A stretch of DNA of 64,000 bases. Source: Candidatus Gastranaerophilales bacterium (GTDB taxonomy: Bacteria > Cyanobacteriota > Vampirovibrionia > Gastranaerophilales > Gastranaerophilaceae). Both the position numbers and the translations under genes were made by a program. The stretch spans positions 1-64,000 of the forward strand of contig CALUUI010000002.1 in assembly GCA_944323925.1 (NCBI GenBank), in the 5' to 3' direction. Shown one piece after another: positions 8,278 to 22,439 of this stretch. The notes below the pieces were generated by a model, which was not told the DNA's origin, did not search any database, and was given only the letters and a program-made list of their open reading frames with translations. Every line of letters starts with the position of its first letter. Position 1 is the stretch's first letter.

Positions 8278-8353
8278 TGGTACCCCCAAGCGAATTCGAA
8301 TCGCTGTCTACACCGTGAAAGGGTGTTGTCCTAGGCCTCTAGACGATGGGGGC
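8278..8353 (-). tRNA. tRNA-Glu (anticodon TTC)
   Basis: The minus strand folds as a full 76-nt tRNA. The acceptor is GCCCCCA with TGGGGGT, the D arm includes GTCTAGAGGCCTAGGAC, the anticodon loop CTTTCAC reads TTC, and the T arm is AGCGA-TTCGAAT-TCGCT. The 3' CCA is encoded. The body is typical of bacterial tRNA-Glu. A terminator follows directly. Confidence 0.97.
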
Positions 8354-8414: not shown

Positions 8415-9332
8415 CTAATATCTTAATGGAATTTTTGAACGATTTATTGTCTTTTTCTCATATCCGTAATTCGCTAGAAGCCTACAAGTACTTGTATAGA
8501 AGATGTTTTCATCTAATGTCGGACCTATATTTATTGAACTTACTGTACGTTTCAAAAATCGATATTCTATATACGGGATAAATAATCCGTTTTTTTCAAA
8601 TATTTTTGTCTGTTTATAACTGTTATTGCCAAAGTTTATTATAAAGATTATCCTATACTCTTTTTCATCTCTAAAATGAGGGTTTTTAAAAAACAGGCTG
8701 ATTATACTTAATATATCTATTAGTTCAAATAATATATCCTGTTGTTTTTCTGTTTTCTTTACGGTCTGTTTTGTGGATAATAATTTTTCATACTGCTTAT
8801 TCCATTTTTCGAATATCATTTTCAATATCATTATCTGGGTTTCTCTTTTATAGATTATATTTCCATACACCGATTTAAAACCCTGACGTTCCATATCTTC
8901 TATCAAATCTTTTTTATAAAAACCGATATTATAACCTGTATAGGTTTGACCTTTTGAATAGTTATTCCACAGGGTTAAATTATCGTTATCGGTTGAAAAT
9001 GATATTGTATAATATTCATATTTATTCAAAAAATTATCATTTCCATCAACAATATTCTTATATTTCTTATAAAAATACTCTTTTATTTGATTGAATAATT
9101 CCTTGTTCAAGTTTTCAGTTTCGTCTATCAAATTAACTATTAACTTGTATGAATAAGTAACTTCTTCCTTATCATTAAGATAAAGGGCATTTGAAAATCT
9201 TATTATTCCTGACTCTAGAATACTTAAGAGTTTTTCCGGCTTTGTATAATGATACAAGCTGGTATTAGAACCATCATCAAGAATTTTTTTGACCTTAGGA
9301 ATTTTACTTAATAAATCATCATAGTTAATCAT
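8415..9332 (-). CDS. DUF2971 family protein, 305 aa
   Basis: The N-terminal part, SLYHYTKPEKLLSILESGIIRFSNALYLNDKEEVTYSY (about 25-62), is the DUF2971 signature. Later come YYTISFSTDNDNLTLWNNYSKG and FRDEKEYRIIF, both characteristic. The conserved Tyr/His and Arg pockets recall ADP-ribosyltransferase-like folds, but the activity of the family is not established. Such genes often sit in variable or defence-rich areas. The ATG has AGG about 9 bp upstream. It lies alone between tRNA-Glu and the giant FliD gene. Confidence 0.75.
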   Translation of the reverse strand: MINYDDLLSKIPKVKKILDDGSNTSLYHYTKPEKLLSILESGIIRFSNALYLNDKEEVTYSYKLIVNLIDETENLNKELFNQIKEYFYKKYKNIVDGNDNFLNKYEYYTISFSTDNDNLTLWNNYSKGQTYTGYNIGFYKKDLIEDMERQGFKSVYGNIIYKRETQIMILKMIFEKWNKQYEKLLSTKQTVKKTEKQQDILFELIDILSIISLFFKNPHFRDEKEYRIIFIINFGNNSYKQTKIFEKNGLFIPYIEYRFLKRTVSSINIGPTLDENIFYTSTCRLLANYGYEKKTINRSKIPLRY

Positions 9333-9398: not shown

Positions 9399-12300
9399 TT
9401 AAACCAAGCCACCTGAGAAAAGGTTGCTATATGAACTTTGCATCGACGAATATAGCATTTCCATATTTTGGAACTTACTTTCTAGCATTGCCTTATATGA
9501 ATCCGCTTGAGCTTGCGCTTTTTCTATCTTTTGATCATATTGATCAATTTCTCTTTGTAAAGATTTATTCTTTGTAGAGAAATAACCGGTAGTTGCAAGC
9601 ATATTTTCAACTATATTTTCAACTTTAGTTAAAATTCCGGGGTTATTTTCAGTACCGACAAGCAAAAGTTTAACTTCATCTTCTGAGGTATCGAGTGCTC
9701 GTTCAAATTTCTCAGGATCAAGGTACAATGTATAAATATCAGAAGGCATTGCGGAGCTTGCCGATTCGGTTGAGATTCCGATTGCTGCTAAGTTTCTAAA
9801 CAACGATACTCCATTTGTTCCGCGAGAGGTAAATAATGATGTTATTTGATTTTTGATTCCTTTTAGGGCTATATCATTATGTAAATCTCCGCCTATTTCA
9901 AGAACTGTATTTAGTTCTGCTACTAATGTATTATAGGCATCTAAAACTTCTTGAACTGCATCTACTATTGATTGGGTATCACGTTCTACTGTTATTGTTA
10001 CATATTCACCTTCGGTTATTCCTTTGATATTTACTGTTAAACCTTCTATTCTTGAAATATCGCTTGTAATAGTATTGGAAGTTGCAACTATTCTTGTGCC
10101 ATTGATTGTTAAAATAGCATTATCTCCCAATTCTTGGTTATAAGTTGTTAATTTTTCGCCATTTGCGTCATTTATTGTTAGACCGAATATTTCGGTAAAA
10201 TTACTTGTTCCTGCTGATATATTTACATAAGAAGCACCAAGACTTGCTGATGTTATAACCATTTTCCCATTTATGTTATCCCAATATGCATTTGCATTTG
10301 CTTCTTCTGAATGGTTAATTTCATTTATTAGTGATGCAATTGTAGTATCACTCGTAATTGTAAATTCAGCATTACCTATAGTAAATGTGCCCTCTGTAAT
10401 ATCGCCTTCTCTATAAAGTCCATGCTCTGTCAATTTAGATGAAGACGATGCTTTATACAATGAGGTATTACCAGTTATAACATTTGAGCCATCTTGAGAC
10501 ATATTAAATATCGTAACTAAATTGGTTGTATCTGTTGATGTTCCAATAATAAGTTCTACGCCTTCTGCTGCTTCTAGCATAAATCTGCCGTCAGAAGTTA
10601 ATGACGCCGTTACTGAACCATTTGAAGCTGTTGATATTCTTGACATTACATTGGCCAATGTATCTGTTGAGGCAACATTAATATTTATTATCGCACCATT
10701 AATACCGATTGCAAATTCACCATTTGAAACCCCTAAGGTTTCTAAGGTTGTTGTATTATCTGCATAATTAACAACTGAAAGATATCTGATTTCATCTTGA
10801 GTATATGTTATTTCATCATCATTTTGCATCCATTGTTCAAGAGTTGCATCACCAAAGTTCAATGTATCTGCAATAGAGGATGTTCCGCCGGTTATTTCAA
10901 CACTACCCATTCCGTTATGGAAAGAAATTACACCGTTTTCAAAGTATGCAGTTACTCCAACTTGCTCAAATTTTTCTATTAATGTACCTATTGTATCAGT
11001 AGACTCTATATTTATTACAGCATTTGTTAAATTCCCATCTTGATCATACATTGATAGGTATACTGAACCTTCTGCTTTTTTCCCTCCATTATCATAATAA
11101 GATAATAATGTATCCTCTGTTGCTACATTTACGTTATCTTCCAGAACTAATGTTGTTCCATAATATGTATTTGAATAAACATTATCGTCTAATCCAAGAT
11201 GGCTGACAAGATTTGACGTTCCATCTAATAATGTAACATCACCAACACTTTCTATAGTAATTTTTCCATCAGCGGAAACATTACCTGCTATTCCATGTGC
11301 AGATAGTGCGCTAAATAATTGAGAAATAGTAGTATCTTCTCTTATTGCAACTGTAGAAACTATTTCACCATTTCTCAATACGTTTATATAGCCTGTTGAA
11401 ACTCCTAAATCTGAAAGTTTTGACGCCTCATCTGCTATATATGTAACATCCTCTGATAATTCTTTTGATTGATGAGAAAGCACTTTTTCTGTTGTTTTAT
11501 AAGTTGGGGCAGCACCGGTTAATTTATCGGCTAAAGACCCAATTAACTTAAAGGTTTTATCTGTTGTTACTGCTGTTAAAACTCCGTCTTTTAATTCTGT
11601 ATTTATACCAAAAGTATTTAAAGAATCAATAACATCACCTATTGTTTCATCTGGAGTAAAGCCTATTGTTTGCATTACACCATCTATTTCCAACCTTAAT
11701 GAAGCTCCAGAATCAAAACCCAAGTCTTTTAGCGTTGTTGTTTCTGACATTTCATAAGTTCTTACCATTGTAAGAGTTTTTGAATTTGTTTGATCATAAA
11801 TATTTACTTTTGTTTGAGTCCTGTTTGTTAATCCGAGTTTTGAAACAAGGTTTGATGATTCATCAGCAATATATTTATCAGAATCAGAAGTTATTTTTAT
11901 TTTATTTCCGTCTAATTCGGCCGTAAATCCGTAGCCAGTAAGAGCTGAAATAAAATCACCAATTGTAGTATTATCTTTAATATTAATAGCGGTATTAATC
12001 CAAGTTCCATTATCATAGATTTTAACCCCGCCTTCTGTTACGCCTAAATCAACTAACTTTGTATCTTCATTTATCACAACAGGGTTAACGGACTGAGGTA
12101 AATCTGTTGTATAACCTGTAACCGTTACTATTGTAGAAGTAGTTGGGTTTGTACTTGCCAATTTTACACCTAAATCGCCTGATATAGAGAATACGTGTTC
12201 TGTAGAGGAAGCTCTAAATGTTCCATTATTAATTGTAGCCGTTATTCCATAAACACCAAGAGCATCTATTACATCCTGCATTGTTTCATTTTCACTAAAG

Positions 12301-15300
12301 CCAAGAGAATAAACCGTACCATCAAGTACTAATCTCAAATCAGAACCATCATTAAACCCTAACTCTGCTAAAGTCGTTGAAGCGGTAATCGTTTTAACTA
12401 CATTGTATGATTGCGCATTAGATGTAGATGATTGATAAACTGTTTTTGTTGTTTGGGTTTTTGTAAAGCCTAATTTAGATGCTAAATTAGAAGTTTCATC
12501 GACAATATACTTATCAGAATCAGCAGAAATATTTAATTTCCCACCAGATAAAGAGGCTGTAAATCCATAGGTTTGAAGTGCAGATATTAAATCATTAATG
12601 CTGGTATCTTCATTAATACTGAAAGCTGTAGGAATCCAAGTTCCGTTATCGTAAATTTTAACATCACCGGTTGTAACCCCAAGATGAATAAGTTTTGTAT
12701 TCCCATTTATAGTAGCATTCTCGACTTTATCAGAAACTGTTCCTGACCAGCTTGTTGTTCTTGATGTATTTGTAATAACAGGATTACTTCCTAATATAAC
12801 CTCGCCTAAGGATCCTGATATAGCAAATTCCTGATAGGTTGAAGATGCTTTAAAAGTTCCACCATTTAACGATGCTGTTATACCTTTAGAAGACAAATAA
12901 TTTAATATATCTTGAACAGTATTTGTTGCCGCAAAGGTTTTAGAAACGACTTCCCCATTCAAGGTAAGTTCTACAACTCTATCTGTTGCAGTATTTGTAA
13001 AATCACCTAAAGAAGTTGTTGTCGCAAGAAGATTAGTAGTTAAATTAGTTATTGCATTGGAAGTAGTATTTTGTGTAAGCGTTTCTGATACAATACTTTG
13101 TGACATACCAAATTTAGTAACTAAATTTGAAGTACCGTTTTGTACCCTTAAATCAGACTCAGCAGATAAGGTTAGCCTACCATCAGCAAACTCTGCGTCA
13201 ATACCTTTTAACTCTAACGCTGCCATAAAATCACTTAGAGTAGATGAGGCAGAAACAGTAAATACAGCAGTCGTAGAGCCGGTTACACCATTATATAAAT
13301 TAATAGTACCATTAGTTACACCCATACTGGACAACTTCGTGGCGGCAGGATCAAACTCCGTTGTATTTACCTGATATGTTTTTTGACCTGAACGGTATAC
13401 ATAGGTATCTGTTGAAGTCAATGTAGTGGTAATCGTTGTTATAATTTGTTCTATAGTTGTCGGAATACTATTAATTGTTTTTGTTGTAATACTTGTTCTT
13501 GTTGTAACATATTGTTGAGTAGAACCCGCTTTATAGTCTATACCTAAAGTCGTTGCAAGTGTACCTGATATTTGAACCCCTGAGATAGATATCATACCAT
13601 CAGTTAAGTCAAAAGTTCCTCCGGCTGATCTTACAGCGTCTGCAATAGATGCTATAGTTGATGAGCCGGTGAAAGTATATTTTGTTGTTGTGCCATCATG
13701 ATTAATAGTAAGATATGTAGTACCCGCAGCACCAATAGCAGAAAGTGATGTACCCATTTCGGCTATAGTATATGTACTTGCTGTTATTAGAGTTGAAACC
13801 ATGGTTACACTGGTAACATTTGTTTTATAATTTTTCGTTGAGATACCTAGAGCTGTAGCCAATGTACCTGTTATATACCCGTTAGAAATATTTATACTCC
13901 CTGATGAATCAACATAAGCATCCAATCCATAAGATTTAAGAGCAGCATTGAAATCACCAATAGTAGCATTTGCGGCAATGGTAACTCCAGAAGCAATTAA
14001 GTCACCATTTTGTGCATAAACATTAAATGATTTTCCGGTTGGAGAAATTCCATAATCTGATAACTTCGAGGCCTCAGTTGCTATCGATCCAACCGTATAT
14101 CTAACCGGAGAAGACGTTATTGATGTAGCATTTCCAGTCGAACTACCAGTCAAACCTAACCCTGTAAGTAATGAGCCGGATATACTACCTACTCCTGAAA
14201 TGGTTATCTGTTTATTATTAAACGTAAATTCACCACCAGCAGCCGTTATTGCATCTGCTACTGATTGTAATGTTGAAGCGGTAGTAAATGTGTGAACAAA
14301 TGTTGTTCCGGCTTGTTTTATTGTTAATACTTGATTAGAGTTAATACCCAAGTCTTTGAGTGTAGATGTCATGGTAGCTGTAGTAGTTATTGTACCTTTC
14401 AGCGCTGAAGATACAATATTTGTTTTGGAAACATAAGTGTGATCTGCACTATGAGATAATCCCAGTTTTGTTGCCAAATTCCCTGTTATATATCCATCTT
14501 CTATTGATATTACACCATTTTCATCTATACTTGCTGTGAGTCCTGCACTTCTTAATTTAGTGAATAAATCACCGATTGTCGCTGTTGATGCTAAAGTTAC
14601 ATTTGACTTCAAAGTTCCTATTTCATCATAAATAGCAAAACTGAGGTTTGAACCGCTTATACCAAGAGAGGACAATTTCGTTGCTTCTGTTGCAATAGAC
14701 GTAACAGTATATGCCAATTTGTTATTGTACATAGATGTACCATTAATAGTATGTTCATCTAATTTTAAAGAGGTAACAAGCGAGCCCGACAACTTATCAA
14801 CTCCTGATATACTTAAAACCCCATCTTCAACAGTCATATTTCCGCCCGCTGTCTTTATAGCATTAGCAATATTTTGCAAAGTTGCAGAACTGGTAAAGGT
14901 TTTCACAGTATTAGTACCATTTACATTAATGGTTAGAACTTGATTAGAATTAATCCCTAAAGACTTAAGCGAAGATGTCATTGTAGCTTGAGTAGTTGTA
15001 GTACCTGCCAATGCACTTGATTCAACCTTAGTTTCTGATATAACTTCCCCAGACACAACTGAAGAAAGTCCAAGGGCTGTAGCTAGTCCACCAGTAATAA
15101 GCCCACCATCTATTGATATAACTCCTTCTTCTGATATTGAGCCTGTTATTCCATATTGTTTCAACGAATCAAACCACTGTTCAATAGTTGTTGTTCCTGT
15201 TACTTGTAAATTTGTGGCAAGATTTTCTCCTCTTTCATTTTGGACAGTATATTTTAAATTTCCTCCGCTTATTCCTAAATCTCCAAATGTTGTACTCGTT

Positions 15301-16613
15301 TGGGCAGTATATGTCAATGAATATTCTAAATACGAACTTGTTAATGATGTCCCGTTTACTTTTTCAGTATCGAAACCTAAACCTGTTGCTACTCCTCCTG
15401 TAATATATAATTTGTCAATATCACCTGTTATAGTTATTACACCATCTTCATCTATCTCAAAATTCGCAGTCATACCATTTGCTGTAGCATAACTTTCTAT
15501 TTGTGTTTTAACATCATTAAGACTTGATGTAGAAGAAAGATTTACTGTTTTAGTGGTTGTTCCGTTACCCAATACCAGTTGATAATTAGAGAAGGTGGTA
15601 TTAAGGTTACCTAACCTTGTTGATAAATCAGCTGATTCAGTATGAACATAAGATAAATTTCCGCTTGAAGATGTAACCGAATCAACAGTTTCTTTTAAGC
15701 CGAGAGCTGTTAGAATATTTGAACCACCATCCATTTCTTTTATATCAATGCCTTGAATGGTTATAAATCCATCAGAATCCATAGTTGCAGTACCTGCGCC
15801 ATAATTATTATTTAAGTAATTCAGGAAGGTTTGAACAGTAGCACCTGCTCCCAGTGATAAATTCTGAACTACTTTATTAATCGTGATATTACCACCAACA
15901 GCCCCAATGTCTGCCAAAACGGTGTCAGGTTTTATTGTTACATATCCTTCGACTCTTAATTCAGAAGAAGATGTTCCCTCAATATCTTTGAAACTCAATC
16001 CCAAAGACTGGAAGACCTTTGTGCTACCTTCATCTATTTGGTAAATATCCGTTTCTATAGTAAACCGGCCTTTATCCTCATCATACGTAGCTGTTACTCC
16101 GATATCAGCCAATTTATTTATCAATGACTCTATTGTATCCTTATTCTCTATCTGGATTTCTTTATCATTAATTGATACATACCCCTCTTTGGCTCCTAAA
16201 ATAGACAGTTTTGTATCCATATCAGCAGTATAAGTCACTGTAACAGTTTTTCTTATGGCAGTGTTAACTTTCGTAGCAGACGCCAGTTGTGTAACCCCAA
16301 CTTCATAAGTATCACGAGAAGCACTGTGTGTAGCTGTAGCTGTAACTTTTGACGGATCAGATGAATTGGCAAGGTTTTGGACAAATATATCCATTGCATC
16401 TACGCCAAATTTGGCATCTGTTAATCTCTCTAAACTACTTCTAAATGATGAAAAATAAGTTTTTATCCCAGATACAACATCCTGCAAATTAACAACGGCA
16501 GCTTTTTCAGTCTGTAATTCCTGAACTTTGGCATTCTTAAGCGCCGTGAGTGCACTCACCCACGAATTGGTGTCTAAACCAGTTACTAAACCGCTAAACT
16601 CGATTACGCTCAA
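9399..16613 (-). CDS. Giant FliD-like flagellar hook-associated protein 2, 2,404 aa
   Basis: Both ends are FliD. The N-terminus (VIEFSGLVTGLDTNSWVSAL, then coil and EVGVTQLASATKV) is FliD_N. The last 250 or so residues (TVERDTQSIVDAVQEVLDAYNTLVAELN through LQREIDQYDQKIEKAQAQADSYK) are FliD_C. FliD normally caps the filament and helps flagellin fold, at about 400-700 residues. Here roughly nineteen flagellin-IN-like modules of about 100 residues lie between the ends. Translation starts at TTG 16613, with GGAG 10-11 bp upstream. No other flagellar gene is in the window. It could be a true cap with an enormous surface domain or an adhesin derived from FliD. Confidence 0.85.
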   Translation of the reverse strand: MSVIEFSGLVTGLDTNSWVSALTALKNAKVQELQTEKAAVVNLQDVVSGIKTYFSSFRSSLERLTDAKFGVDAMDIFVQNLANSSDPSKVTATATHSASRDTYEVGVTQLASATKVNTAIRKTVTVTYTADMDTKLSILGAKEGYVSINDKEIQIENKDTIESLINKLADIGVTATYDEDKGRFTIETDIYQIDEGSTKVFQSLGLSFKDIEGTSSSELRVEGYVTIKPDTVLADIGAVGGNITINKVVQNLSLGAGATVQTFLNYLNNNYGAGTATMDSDGFITIQGIDIKEMDGGSNILTALGLKETVDSVTSSSGNLSYVHTESADLSTRLGNLNTTFSNYQLVLGNGTTTKTVNLSSTSSLNDVKTQIESYATANGMTANFEIDEDGVITITGDIDKLYITGGVATGLGFDTEKVNGTSLTSSYLEYSLTYTAQTSTTFGDLGISGGNLKYTVQNERGENLATNLQVTGTTTIEQWFDSLKQYGITGSISEEGVISIDGGLITGGLATALGLSSVVSGEVISETKVESSALAGTTTTQATMTSSLKSLGINSNQVLTINVNGTNTVKTFTSSATLQNIANAIKTAGGNMTVEDGVLSISGVDKLSGSLVTSLKLDEHTINGTSMYNNKLAYTVTSIATEATKLSSLGISGSNLSFAIYDEIGTLKSNVTLASTATIGDLFTKLRSAGLTASIDENGVISIEDGYITGNLATKLGLSHSADHTYVSKTNIVSSALKGTITTTATMTSTLKDLGINSNQVLTIKQAGTTFVHTFTTASTLQSVADAITAAGGEFTFNNKQITISGVGSISGSLLTGLGLTGSSTGNATSITSSPVRYTVGSIATEASKLSDYGISPTGKSFNVYAQNGDLIASGVTIAANATIGDFNAALKSYGLDAYVDSSGSINISNGYITGTLATALGISTKNYKTNVTSVTMVSTLITASTYTIAEMGTSLSAIGAAGTTYLTINHDGTTTKYTFTGSSTIASIADAVRSAGGTFDLTDGMISISGVQISGTLATTLGIDYKAGSTQQYVTTRTSITTKTINSIPTTIEQIITTITTTLTSTDTYVYRSGQKTYQVNTTEFDPAATKLSSMGVTNGTINLYNGVTGSTTAVFTVSASSTLSDFMAALELKGIDAEFADGRLTLSAESDLRVQNGTSNLVTKFGMSQSIVSETLTQNTTSNAITNLTTNLLATTTSLGDFTNTATDRVVELTLNGEVVSKTFAATNTVQDILNYLSSKGITASLNGGTFKASSTYQEFAISGSLGEVILGSNPVITNTSRTTSWSGTVSDKVENATINGNTKLIHLGVTTGDVKIYDNGTWIPTAFSINEDTSINDLISALQTYGFTASLSGGKLNISADSDKYIVDETSNLASKLGFTKTQTTKTVYQSSTSNAQSYNVVKTITASTTLAELGFNDGSDLRLVLDGTVYSLGFSENETMQDVIDALGVYGITATINNGTFRASSTEHVFSISGDLGVKLASTNPTTSTIVTVTGYTTDLPQSVNPVVINEDTKLVDLGVTEGGVKIYDNGTWINTAINIKDNTTIGDFISALTGYGFTAELDGNKIKITSDSDKYIADESSNLVSKLGLTNRTQTKVNIYDQTNSKTLTMVRTYEMSETTTLKDLGFDSGASLRLEIDGVMQTIGFTPDETIGDVIDSLNTFGINTELKDGVLTAVTTDKTFKLIGSLADKLTGAAPTYKTTEKVLSHQSKELSEDVTYIADEASKLSDLGVSTGYINVLRNGEIVSTVAIREDTTISQLFSALSAHGIAGNVSADGKITIESVGDVTLLDGTSNLVSHLGLDDNVYSNTYYGTTLVLEDNVNVATEDTLLSYYDNGGKKAEGSVYLSMYDQDGNLTNAVINIESTDTIGTLIEKFEQVGVTAYFENGVISFHNGMGSVEITGGTSSIADTLNFGDATLEQWMQNDDEITYTQDEIRYLSVVNYADNTTTLETLGVSNGEFAIGINGAIININVASTDTLANVMSRISTASNGSVTASLTSDGRFMLEAAEGVELIIGTSTDTTNLVTIFNMSQDGSNVITGNTSLYKASSSSKLTEHGLYREGDITEGTFTIGNAEFTITSDTTIASLINEINHSEEANANAYWDNINGKMVITSASLGASYVNISAGTSNFTEIFGLTINDANGEKLTTYNQELGDNAILTINGTRIVATSNTITSDISRIEGLTVNIKGITEGEYVTITVERDTQSIVDAVQEVLDAYNTLVAELNTVLEIGGDLHNDIALKGIKNQITSLFTSRGTNGVSLFRNLAAIGISTESASSAMPSDIYTLYLDPEKFERALDTSEDEVKLLLVGTENNPGILTKVENIVENMLATTGYFSTKNKSLQREIDQYDQKIEKAQAQADSYKAMLESKFQNMEMLYSSMQSSYSNLFSGGLV
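10185..16230 (-). repeat. About nineteen flagellin-IN-like protein repeats inside FliD
   Basis: Each module follows the plan: K-L-S-x-L-G-I/V, a beta hairpin, S/T-x-T-I-x-D, a short amphipathic helix ending A-L-x-x-Y-G-I, two strands with D/G-G-x-I-x-I, and a close at L-A/V-T-x-L-G-L. Two variants alternate for much of the array: one keeps LRLxLDG, the other xVKIYDNGTW-type hairpins. This suggests growth by duplication of two-module units. The count is by eye. Confidence 0.75.
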
Positions 16614-16876
16614 CTTAGTTTGTCTCCATAACTTTCTTGACAGGCACGTCCAAGCGTCCTTGAACTTTCTAGTACCTGTTTTTGTTTTATACTGCCTATA
16701 ATATTTCTATTCCACCTTATTATATTTTTATAACATTTTTACAGCAAAACTTTACATTTCTTTGCGTTTACAATAGAAATCTAGCTCTTTCTACTTCTTC
16801 AATGTTGATCTGGATATAATTTGTATAGTGGACGTATATATTCTACTAAATTTTATTACTTTTGACAAGTATAAAT

Positions 16877-21245: not shown

Positions 21246-22439
21246 TTGTACGCATATAATTACCGCACAACAGAGCAAATAGAGAGACCACGAGTAAATA
21301 GGCGAACACAGTATAAAAGGACTGTTGTTAAGCGTACGGTTATAAAGAAGCGTAACCCGGTTTTAAACTTTTTTTCAAGAATAATAGCGTTAAGTATAAT
21401 TTTATCAATAGCATATTTTGTACTTCCACAAGTATTTAATAAGCTATATTATCAAAACTACGTTAAGCGCAATATAAAGCTAAGCACAGAGCAAAGCGAT
21501 GCAATCGGGAAAATAGGCAGCAAAATCGACTCGAGCGTTGATATTAGAGATATTGCGTTGCCATTATCTTCCAGAGTTTATAATACTCATTTTATGGGAG
21601 AGAATTTTATAACACCTATAAATACTAATAACAGAGAGATTTCTTCATTATATCTAACCCAAAAATTAACACCATTAGAGCATAAAATAAGAAACTTGAT
21701 GAAAACTTATCCTCAAATAACTCCGGGGATATTTGTATGGGAATATGACAGCGGGAATTATTTGGGAATAAATGAAAATGAAATCTTTTCAACAGCAAGT
21801 ATAATTAAAATACCTGTTTTAATAAGAGTATTCAAATCAATTGAAGCAAACCAGCTAACAATTTATGATGAAATGACATTAACAAATTATTACCGTTCAT
21901 CCGGCTCTGGAGATTTACAATATCAACCAGACGGACTTAAATTAACAATAGACCGATTGGCACACGATATGATAACAATCTCTGATAATACTGCAACAAA
22001 TATGCTGATGTCAAAAGTCGGTTCAATGGAAGATATAAATGCAGGTTTAAGAGATTGGGGGTTAAGCAAAACAAGGGTAAATAATTGGCTTCCTGACTTA
22101 GACGGAACAAATATAACAACCCCTATGGAGATGGCAAAACTATTATATAATCTTGATAACCCGGGATTTTTGAATGTTAACTCAAGAGAATACATAATTG
22201 ATTATATGAGTCACGTAAAAAATAACCGACTAATTCAAGCAGGAATCGACCCCAAAGCATTATTTATACACAAAACCGGTGATATCGGAACAATGTTAGG
22301 TGATGCAGGGATAGTATATGCGCCAAACGGAAAGAGATATATAATAGTAATTCTCGCAAATCGTCCATTTAACCATCCTGCAGGAAAAGATTTCATTCAG
22401 AAAGCAAGTTCAATAATATACAAAGAGCTTGTAGGTTAA
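21246..22439 (+). CDS. Class A beta-lactamase-like serine hydrolase, membrane anchored, 397 aa
   Basis: A basic cytosolic tail (1-38) and one membrane helix (40-60) are followed by an extracytoplasmic catalytic domain. The three penicillin-recognising motifs are present: S185-x-x-K188 in FSTASIIKIP, SDN at 246-248, and KTG at 343-345. The omega-loop Glu (ExxLN) of true class A enzymes is not found; LPDLDGTN stands there. It is more likely a cell-wall peptidase/esterase or a weak beta-lactamase than a resistance enzyme. The gene starts at TTG 21246, 6 bp after a strong GGGGAGAGG site. Confidence 0.85.
   Translation: MYAYNYRTTEQIERPRVNRRTQYKRTVVKRTVIKKRNPVLNFFSRIIALSIILSIAYFVLPQVFNKLYYQNYVKRNIKLSTEQSDAIGKIGSKIDSSVDIRDIALPLSSRVYNTHFMGENFITPINTNNREISSLYLTQKLTPLEHKIRNLMKTYPQITPGIFVWEYDSGNYLGINENEIFSTASIIKIPVLIRVFKSIEANQLTIYDEMTLTNYYRSSGSGDLQYQPDGLKLTIDRLAHDMITISDNTATNMLMSKVGSMEDINAGLRDWGLSKTRVNNWLPDLDGTNITTPMEMAKLLYNLDNPGFLNVNSREYIIDYMSHVKNNRLIQAGIDPKALFIHKTGDIGTMLGDAGIVYAPNGKRYIIVILANRPFNHPAGKDFIQKASSIIYKELVG

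Follow-up and report, generated by a model that had tools for sequence, protein, structure and literature searches.

An enlarged FliD paralogue with a nineteen-module array in gut Gastranaerophilales, a candidate filament-tip adhesin

The window, that is the whole stretch of 64,000 nucleotides analysed here, belongs to a Candidatus Gastranaerophilales genome (assembly GCA_944323925.1, contig CALUUI010000002.1) and carries at 9399..16613(-) a gene with a TTG start, the 2,404 codons of which run without interruption. Its product, a FliD paralogue here called giant A, has 2,404 aa (253 kDa, pI 4.4), is rich in threonine and contains no cysteine. Pfam places FliD_N at residues 11-113 (E 1.2e-13, 51.9 bits) and FliD_C at residues 2163-2393 (E 8.3e-36, 124 bits), both above the cut-off and in a single frame, which bears out the original prediction of a 2,404-residue FliD with complete N- and C-terminal parts. 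The N-terminal D0-D1 part (16269..16613(-), residues 1-115) is 47% identical to the normal FliD of the same genome, and the C-terminal D1-D0 part occupies 9399..10163(-) (residues 2151-2404 and the stop codon). In Pfam searches of giant A neither Flagellin_N nor Flagellin_C was matched, PF07196 (Flagellin_IN) gave no match at E<=0.1 while homologous modules in locus L211 do match it (E 8.1e-10), and none of the known binding-domain families matched the modules. The neighbours of giant A are conserved in same-genus genomes and include a DUF2971 gene (8415..9332(-), 305 aa), whose place beside giant A is kept in five genomes of this genus. A tRNA-Glu gene lies at 8278-8353(-), between a Fic-domain gene and the DUF2971 gene, and on the other side of giant A a 397 aa protein encoded at 21246-22439(+) has class A beta-lactamase-type matches, those shown all being below the family cut-offs.

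Between the FliD ends, a module HMM built from the giant A protein itself and iterated to convergence finds exactly 19 non-overlapping copies (residues 134-2145), sharpening the predicted "about nineteen", and 0 copies in 20 shuffles or in the reversed protein. The module has a core of ~75 aa and a period of ~105 residues, and pairwise identity among the copies is 15-58%. Modules 1-9 make up a putative outgoing half-array (13539..16292(-), residues 108-1025) with two-module supra-repeats (m4/6/8 and m5/7/9), and modules 10-18 a putative returning half-array (10500..13340(-), residues 1092-2038) with a second such series (m11/13/15 and m12/14/16); module 19 (10164..10499(-), about residues 2039-2150) stands beside FliD_C. 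The longest inter-module gap is a candidate hinge containing 30% Thr (13341..13538(-), residues 1026-1091), around which the array is split 9|10. The same split was found in all A and B giants compared, and giant B, a second giant of this genome, has about 670 residues of mostly Thr-rich inserts at the hinge position. Other giants carry extra inserts in mid-array, typically with 7-12 modules on the N-terminal side and 8-17 on the C-terminal side and asymmetrically in some (3|10, 5|9), although these positions are non-independent observations, the inserts being partly shared by descent. The inserts contain GLUG motifs, M26-N-like stretches and Thr-rich stretches; in G268 an acyl-carrier domain (PP-binding, E 2.8e-12) lies within the mid-array insert of a giant FliD (L055:12081-13517(-)). 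Since the two chain ends have to come together in D0/D1, the mid-chain part would be the one that reaches out farthest, and this topology, together with the insert positions, points to an arm that runs out and back and has its tip at the distal end. An out-and-back topology has also been argued for giant flagellins (PMC6248924).

Structure prediction of the repeat array, a check proposed along with the original prediction, matched the modules to the outer domains of FliD and flagellin. AlphaFold2 models modules 4-9 as repeated small alpha/beta domains, in which strands flank one main helix, with pLDDT of about 80-93 in the cores and <50 in the linkers; the relative placement of the modules is not confident (pTM 0.35). 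The top PDB match, and the sole one at E<=0.001, is Helicobacter pylori FliD (6iwy, E 5.6e-6), followed by flagellar filaments, with D2/D3 domains of FliD and flagellin among other weak matches. Judged on these models, the modules are D2/D3-type outer domains of the FliD/flagellin kind. At the sequence level, phmmer with full-length giant A found no FliD in the PDB. The module profile also matches polyubiquitin (E 3e-8) and, weakly, Pfam UBX/OTU1_UBXL, but the best 50 structure matches contain FliD and flagellin domains and no ubiquitin; a ubiquitin-like (beta-grasp) module was therefore rejected, and the profile matches are taken as the resemblance of a short strand-helix stretch.

Lengths in relatives proved near-constant: three same-genus orthologues comprise 2,421, 2,400 and 2,402 aa, all of them with 19 modules and at 73-81% identity. 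At the DNA level no tandem array was seen inside the gene, and its longest exact direct repeat is 14 bp, the same as in codon shuffles and thus at chance level. For giant A, dN/dS comes to about 0.10 over the modules and 0.03-0.06 over both ends, ratios that are rough with dS near or past saturation; by these estimates the D0/D1 core is under strong purifying selection. In a further orthologue of the genus (G090, L163:1549-2538) the entire 19-module array is missing in frame, which leaves 329-346 aa with ends 86-89% identical to those of the window protein and with the leader and the DUF2971 neighbour intact; no repeat is evident at the deletion junction. In G131 the array is present as far as the locus was read. 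If the G090 assembly is right, the array would not always be kept. AlphaFold2 models the array-less D0/D1-only protein with pLDDT 87.6 and pTM 0.80, and at E<=1e-3 its PDB matches number 26, every one a FliD cap; judged on this orthologue, the D0/D1 core of the giants is predicted to fold like the solved FliD caps.

The genome (1.94 Mb, 99.9% complete) is that of an uncultured, flagellated gut bacterium and encodes FlgI, FlgK, FlgL and FliP/Q/R as well as CsrA. It has six Flagellin_N matches, one of which (C2:98722) is FlgL, so that the search for fliC and hook genes yielded five flagellins together with FlgK and FlgL. The remark that no other flagellar gene is nearby stands for the window, where there was none among the ORFs tested (part of the window's ORFs), but not for the contig, on which FlgI, FlgK, FlgL and one flagellin are found 80-90 kb away. 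On G000 contig C9, a 280-aa frame (L046:6779-7621(-)) contains two tandem FliQ-type domains. Three genes of the genome have FliD_C: a normal FliD of 576 aa with two of giant A's modules between its FliD ends, giant A, and giant B (3,002 aa, 63% identical to giant A). The earlier picture of one FliD subunit bearing ~2,000 residues of modules was hence incomplete, as the giant is a paralogue beside a normal cap and belongs to a family whose largest members have about 6,600 aa. The normal FliD's module 2 and module 19 of giant A share 48% identity and take the same position, adjacent to FliD_C, and most other modules are closer to normal module 1 than to module 2, though weakly.

A family-wide scan of 288 genomes found giants in the genera g1, g25 and g40, and a class-wide scan of 382 genomes showed, among the matches listed, no giants of the main clade outside those genera. 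Several of the close loci in a named collection come from rumen or gut samples. The largest giant open frame has 6,603 aa, compared with ~580 aa and two outer modules in normal FliD; genomes with at least two giants occur, and normal-type FliDs were seen beside giants in giant-bearing genomes, some partners being cut by contig ends. A tree of the C-terminal ends unites all 36 giants analysed in one clade (100/100 support), which groups with normal FliDs from these same genera; giant A falls among the giants, as a separate paralogue clade, and apart from the normal FliD found in its genus. This single clade points to one ancient fliD duplication followed by amplification of D2/D3-type modules. 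As reconstructed from the tree, fliD was duplicated in one ancestral gut Gastranaerophilales lineage; one copy remained the normal cap, and in the second the D2/D3-type outer module was tandemly amplified with the D0/D1 core kept. Genus-level duplications of the giants are placed after this event by the same sequence comparison. Outside the main clade, divergent giant FliD-like proteins of about 5,900 and 3,980 aa with 25-27 modules occur in two other genera, one directly upstream of fliD (G005, L209:2809-19899 with L210:2-676) and one with modules that overlap Flagellin_IN matches (G033, L211:1459-13401); their C-termini match the FliD profile (E 1e-19 to 1e-26) and are missed by Pfam FliD_C. 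The literature searched contained no description of a giant FliD, or of FliD in Melainabacteria.

Upstream of giant A lies a leader hairpin (16640..16679(-)) with a CAAGGACGCUUG core, a covarying stem and a loop that shows GGA, as in CsrA sites. An alignment of 11 leaders, drawn from six genomes, has 100% of its cells paired, and 6 of the 8 pairs of the outer stem are changed on both sides, while slid controls all reach <=43%; the folding z is about -4 in the three examples folded. Rfam returned tRNA only in the regions searched. Within the genus, the hairpin pattern occurs upstream of giants A and B only, bar one mismatched, chance-like match in G063, and the two giants are probably controlled together through this leader hairpin, which may bind CsrA. 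Farther upstream, a GTGGAATA box (16708..16715(-)) recurs before giant B and the normal fliD; the box was chosen post hoc, after inspection, and it probably links the control of both giants with that of fliD. Candidate sigma-28-like promoters before giants, fliD and flagellins were no better than shuffles and were discarded.

On domain and sequence grounds, the giants are an enlarged variant of the known FliD cap protein that is present in addition to the normal one. Like FliD (HAP2) caps (PF02465/PF07195; 9gnz, 9m6i, 6sih, 5h5v), giant A combines D0/D1 ends and the predicted core fold with D2/D3-type modules in between; unlike them, it has 19 modules instead of 2 and 2,404 instead of about 580 aa, occurs beside a normal FliD, and possesses a Thr-rich mid-array hinge and its own leader RNA. 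The outer modules resemble the PF07196 modules of flagellins and FliD in that the G033 giant has Flagellin_IN matches overlapping the modules that the module HMM detects there, whereas the window protein itself lacks a direct match to that family at E<=0.1. A second parallel is provided by the giant flagellins of marine Gammaproteobacteria, which have about 1,000 aa or more, two duplicated DE regions and a thicker filament (PMC6248924). In these, as in the giants, the outer domain is tandemly duplicated between conserved D0/D1 ends and an extra insert lies between the duplicated regions (PMC6248924), but in the giants it is the cap protein that is enlarged, to a maximum of some 30 modules and about 6,600 aa. 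FliD has been reported as an adhesin in some bacteria; for Pseudomonas aeruginosa and Clostridioides difficile the cap protein is described as binding to mucin or host surfaces, with some contradictory reports (reviewed in PMC8306008); those proteins are normal-sized and their adhesion has been studied, whereas for giant A adhesion is inferred only.

The explanation that we consider rather probable is that giant A is a fliD paralogue with an amplified outer module, joined to the cap as an arm that serves as a tip adhesin or tether and is under shared control. The flagellar type III apparatus would export the giant unfolded, and its D0/D1 core would join the cap or replace some of the normal subunits there. 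The array would then project as a flexible out-and-back arm, with 9 modules leading out, the Thr-rich hinge, and 10 modules leading back. The far tip would be the hinge or, in larger giants, the inserted GLUG-motif or Thr-rich domains, and the giant would act as an adhesin or tether for gut mucus, cells or particles of feed. A flagellar tip with such long arms would probably be a device for sensing or sticking. Of the two functions originally proposed, the filament-tip adhesin is the one best supported by these comparisons. A fully repurposed surface protein has become less likely, since the genome encodes a normal FliD and five flagellins along with hook-associated proteins and the flagellar export apparatus, and because the D0/D1 core combines strong purifying selection (dN/dS ~0.05) with a predicted cap fold. 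A more specific version, to which we give not quite an even chance, is a mixed cap in which normal FliD builds the filament and the giant paralogues (2,400-6,600 aa) form grappling tentacles at the flagellar tip that would grow by two modules at a time, have exchangeable mid-array tips and share post-transcriptional control through the hairpin.

The alternative that fares best is that the giants are caps for particular filaments or flagellins, with an array that is structural (spacing, sheath or bundle contact) and not ligand-binding. Giant-bearing genera have 5-12 flagellin-type genes and some genomes two or more giants, in keeping with this reading, and matched surfaces of filament and cap are conceivable where giant modules occur in flagellins: two flagellins of 984 and 997 aa in the same-genus genome G063 (L213:100-3054 and L212:3320-6313) have six giant-type modules between their flagellin ends. 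However, up to 13 flagellin-type genes are found in genera without these giants, so flagellin number does not track the giants, and the GLUG and Thr-rich inserts in mid-array fit a presented tip better than a structural spacer; we regard this alternative as unlikely. Alternatively, the giants may no longer be cap subunits and may instead be surface or released proteins secreted through the flagellar type III apparatus, which would retain the FliD ends only as a signal for export and a handle for chaperones. In principle such ends could be enough for export, capping is already covered by the normal FliD beside the giants, and the giant genes stand away from the flagellar clusters that were seen. 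The strong constraint on both D0/D1 halves nevertheless favours cap membership, as these halves (dN/dS 0.03-0.06), and not the N-terminal export region alone, are the most conserved parts; moreover, a cap-subunit fold is predicted for the core, and the array deletion in G090 leaves precisely this core in frame, which makes secretion for its own sake unlikely. An assembly error or several fused genes inflating the protein, suspected because the draft genome is in 42 contigs, the protein is repetitive and the relative L076 has an N-run within its array, is very improbable indeed, given one open frame, no exact repeat >14 bp, a near-constant length and the same module count in three other species, and constraint over the full protein, so that neither collapse or expansion of the assembly nor a spread of the repeats over several genes accounts for giant A.

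FliD is usually treated as one modest-sized protein per flagellum, and the giants are four to eleven times larger. If the cap-joined arm is real, the tip of the flagellum can serve as a dedicated binding device with a long reach, the giants would test the upper substrate size of the flagellar export channel, and they would be the counterpart, among cap proteins, to the giant flagellins. With the orthologue that lacks the array and with the mid-array inserts, the out-and-back topology can be put to a direct test. As a separate observation, two contigs of another genome (G168:C40 and G168:C50) contain Flagellin_N in open frames of 1,393 and 1,418 aa; these are giant flagellins, and giant FliDs are likewise found in the genus to which this genome belongs.
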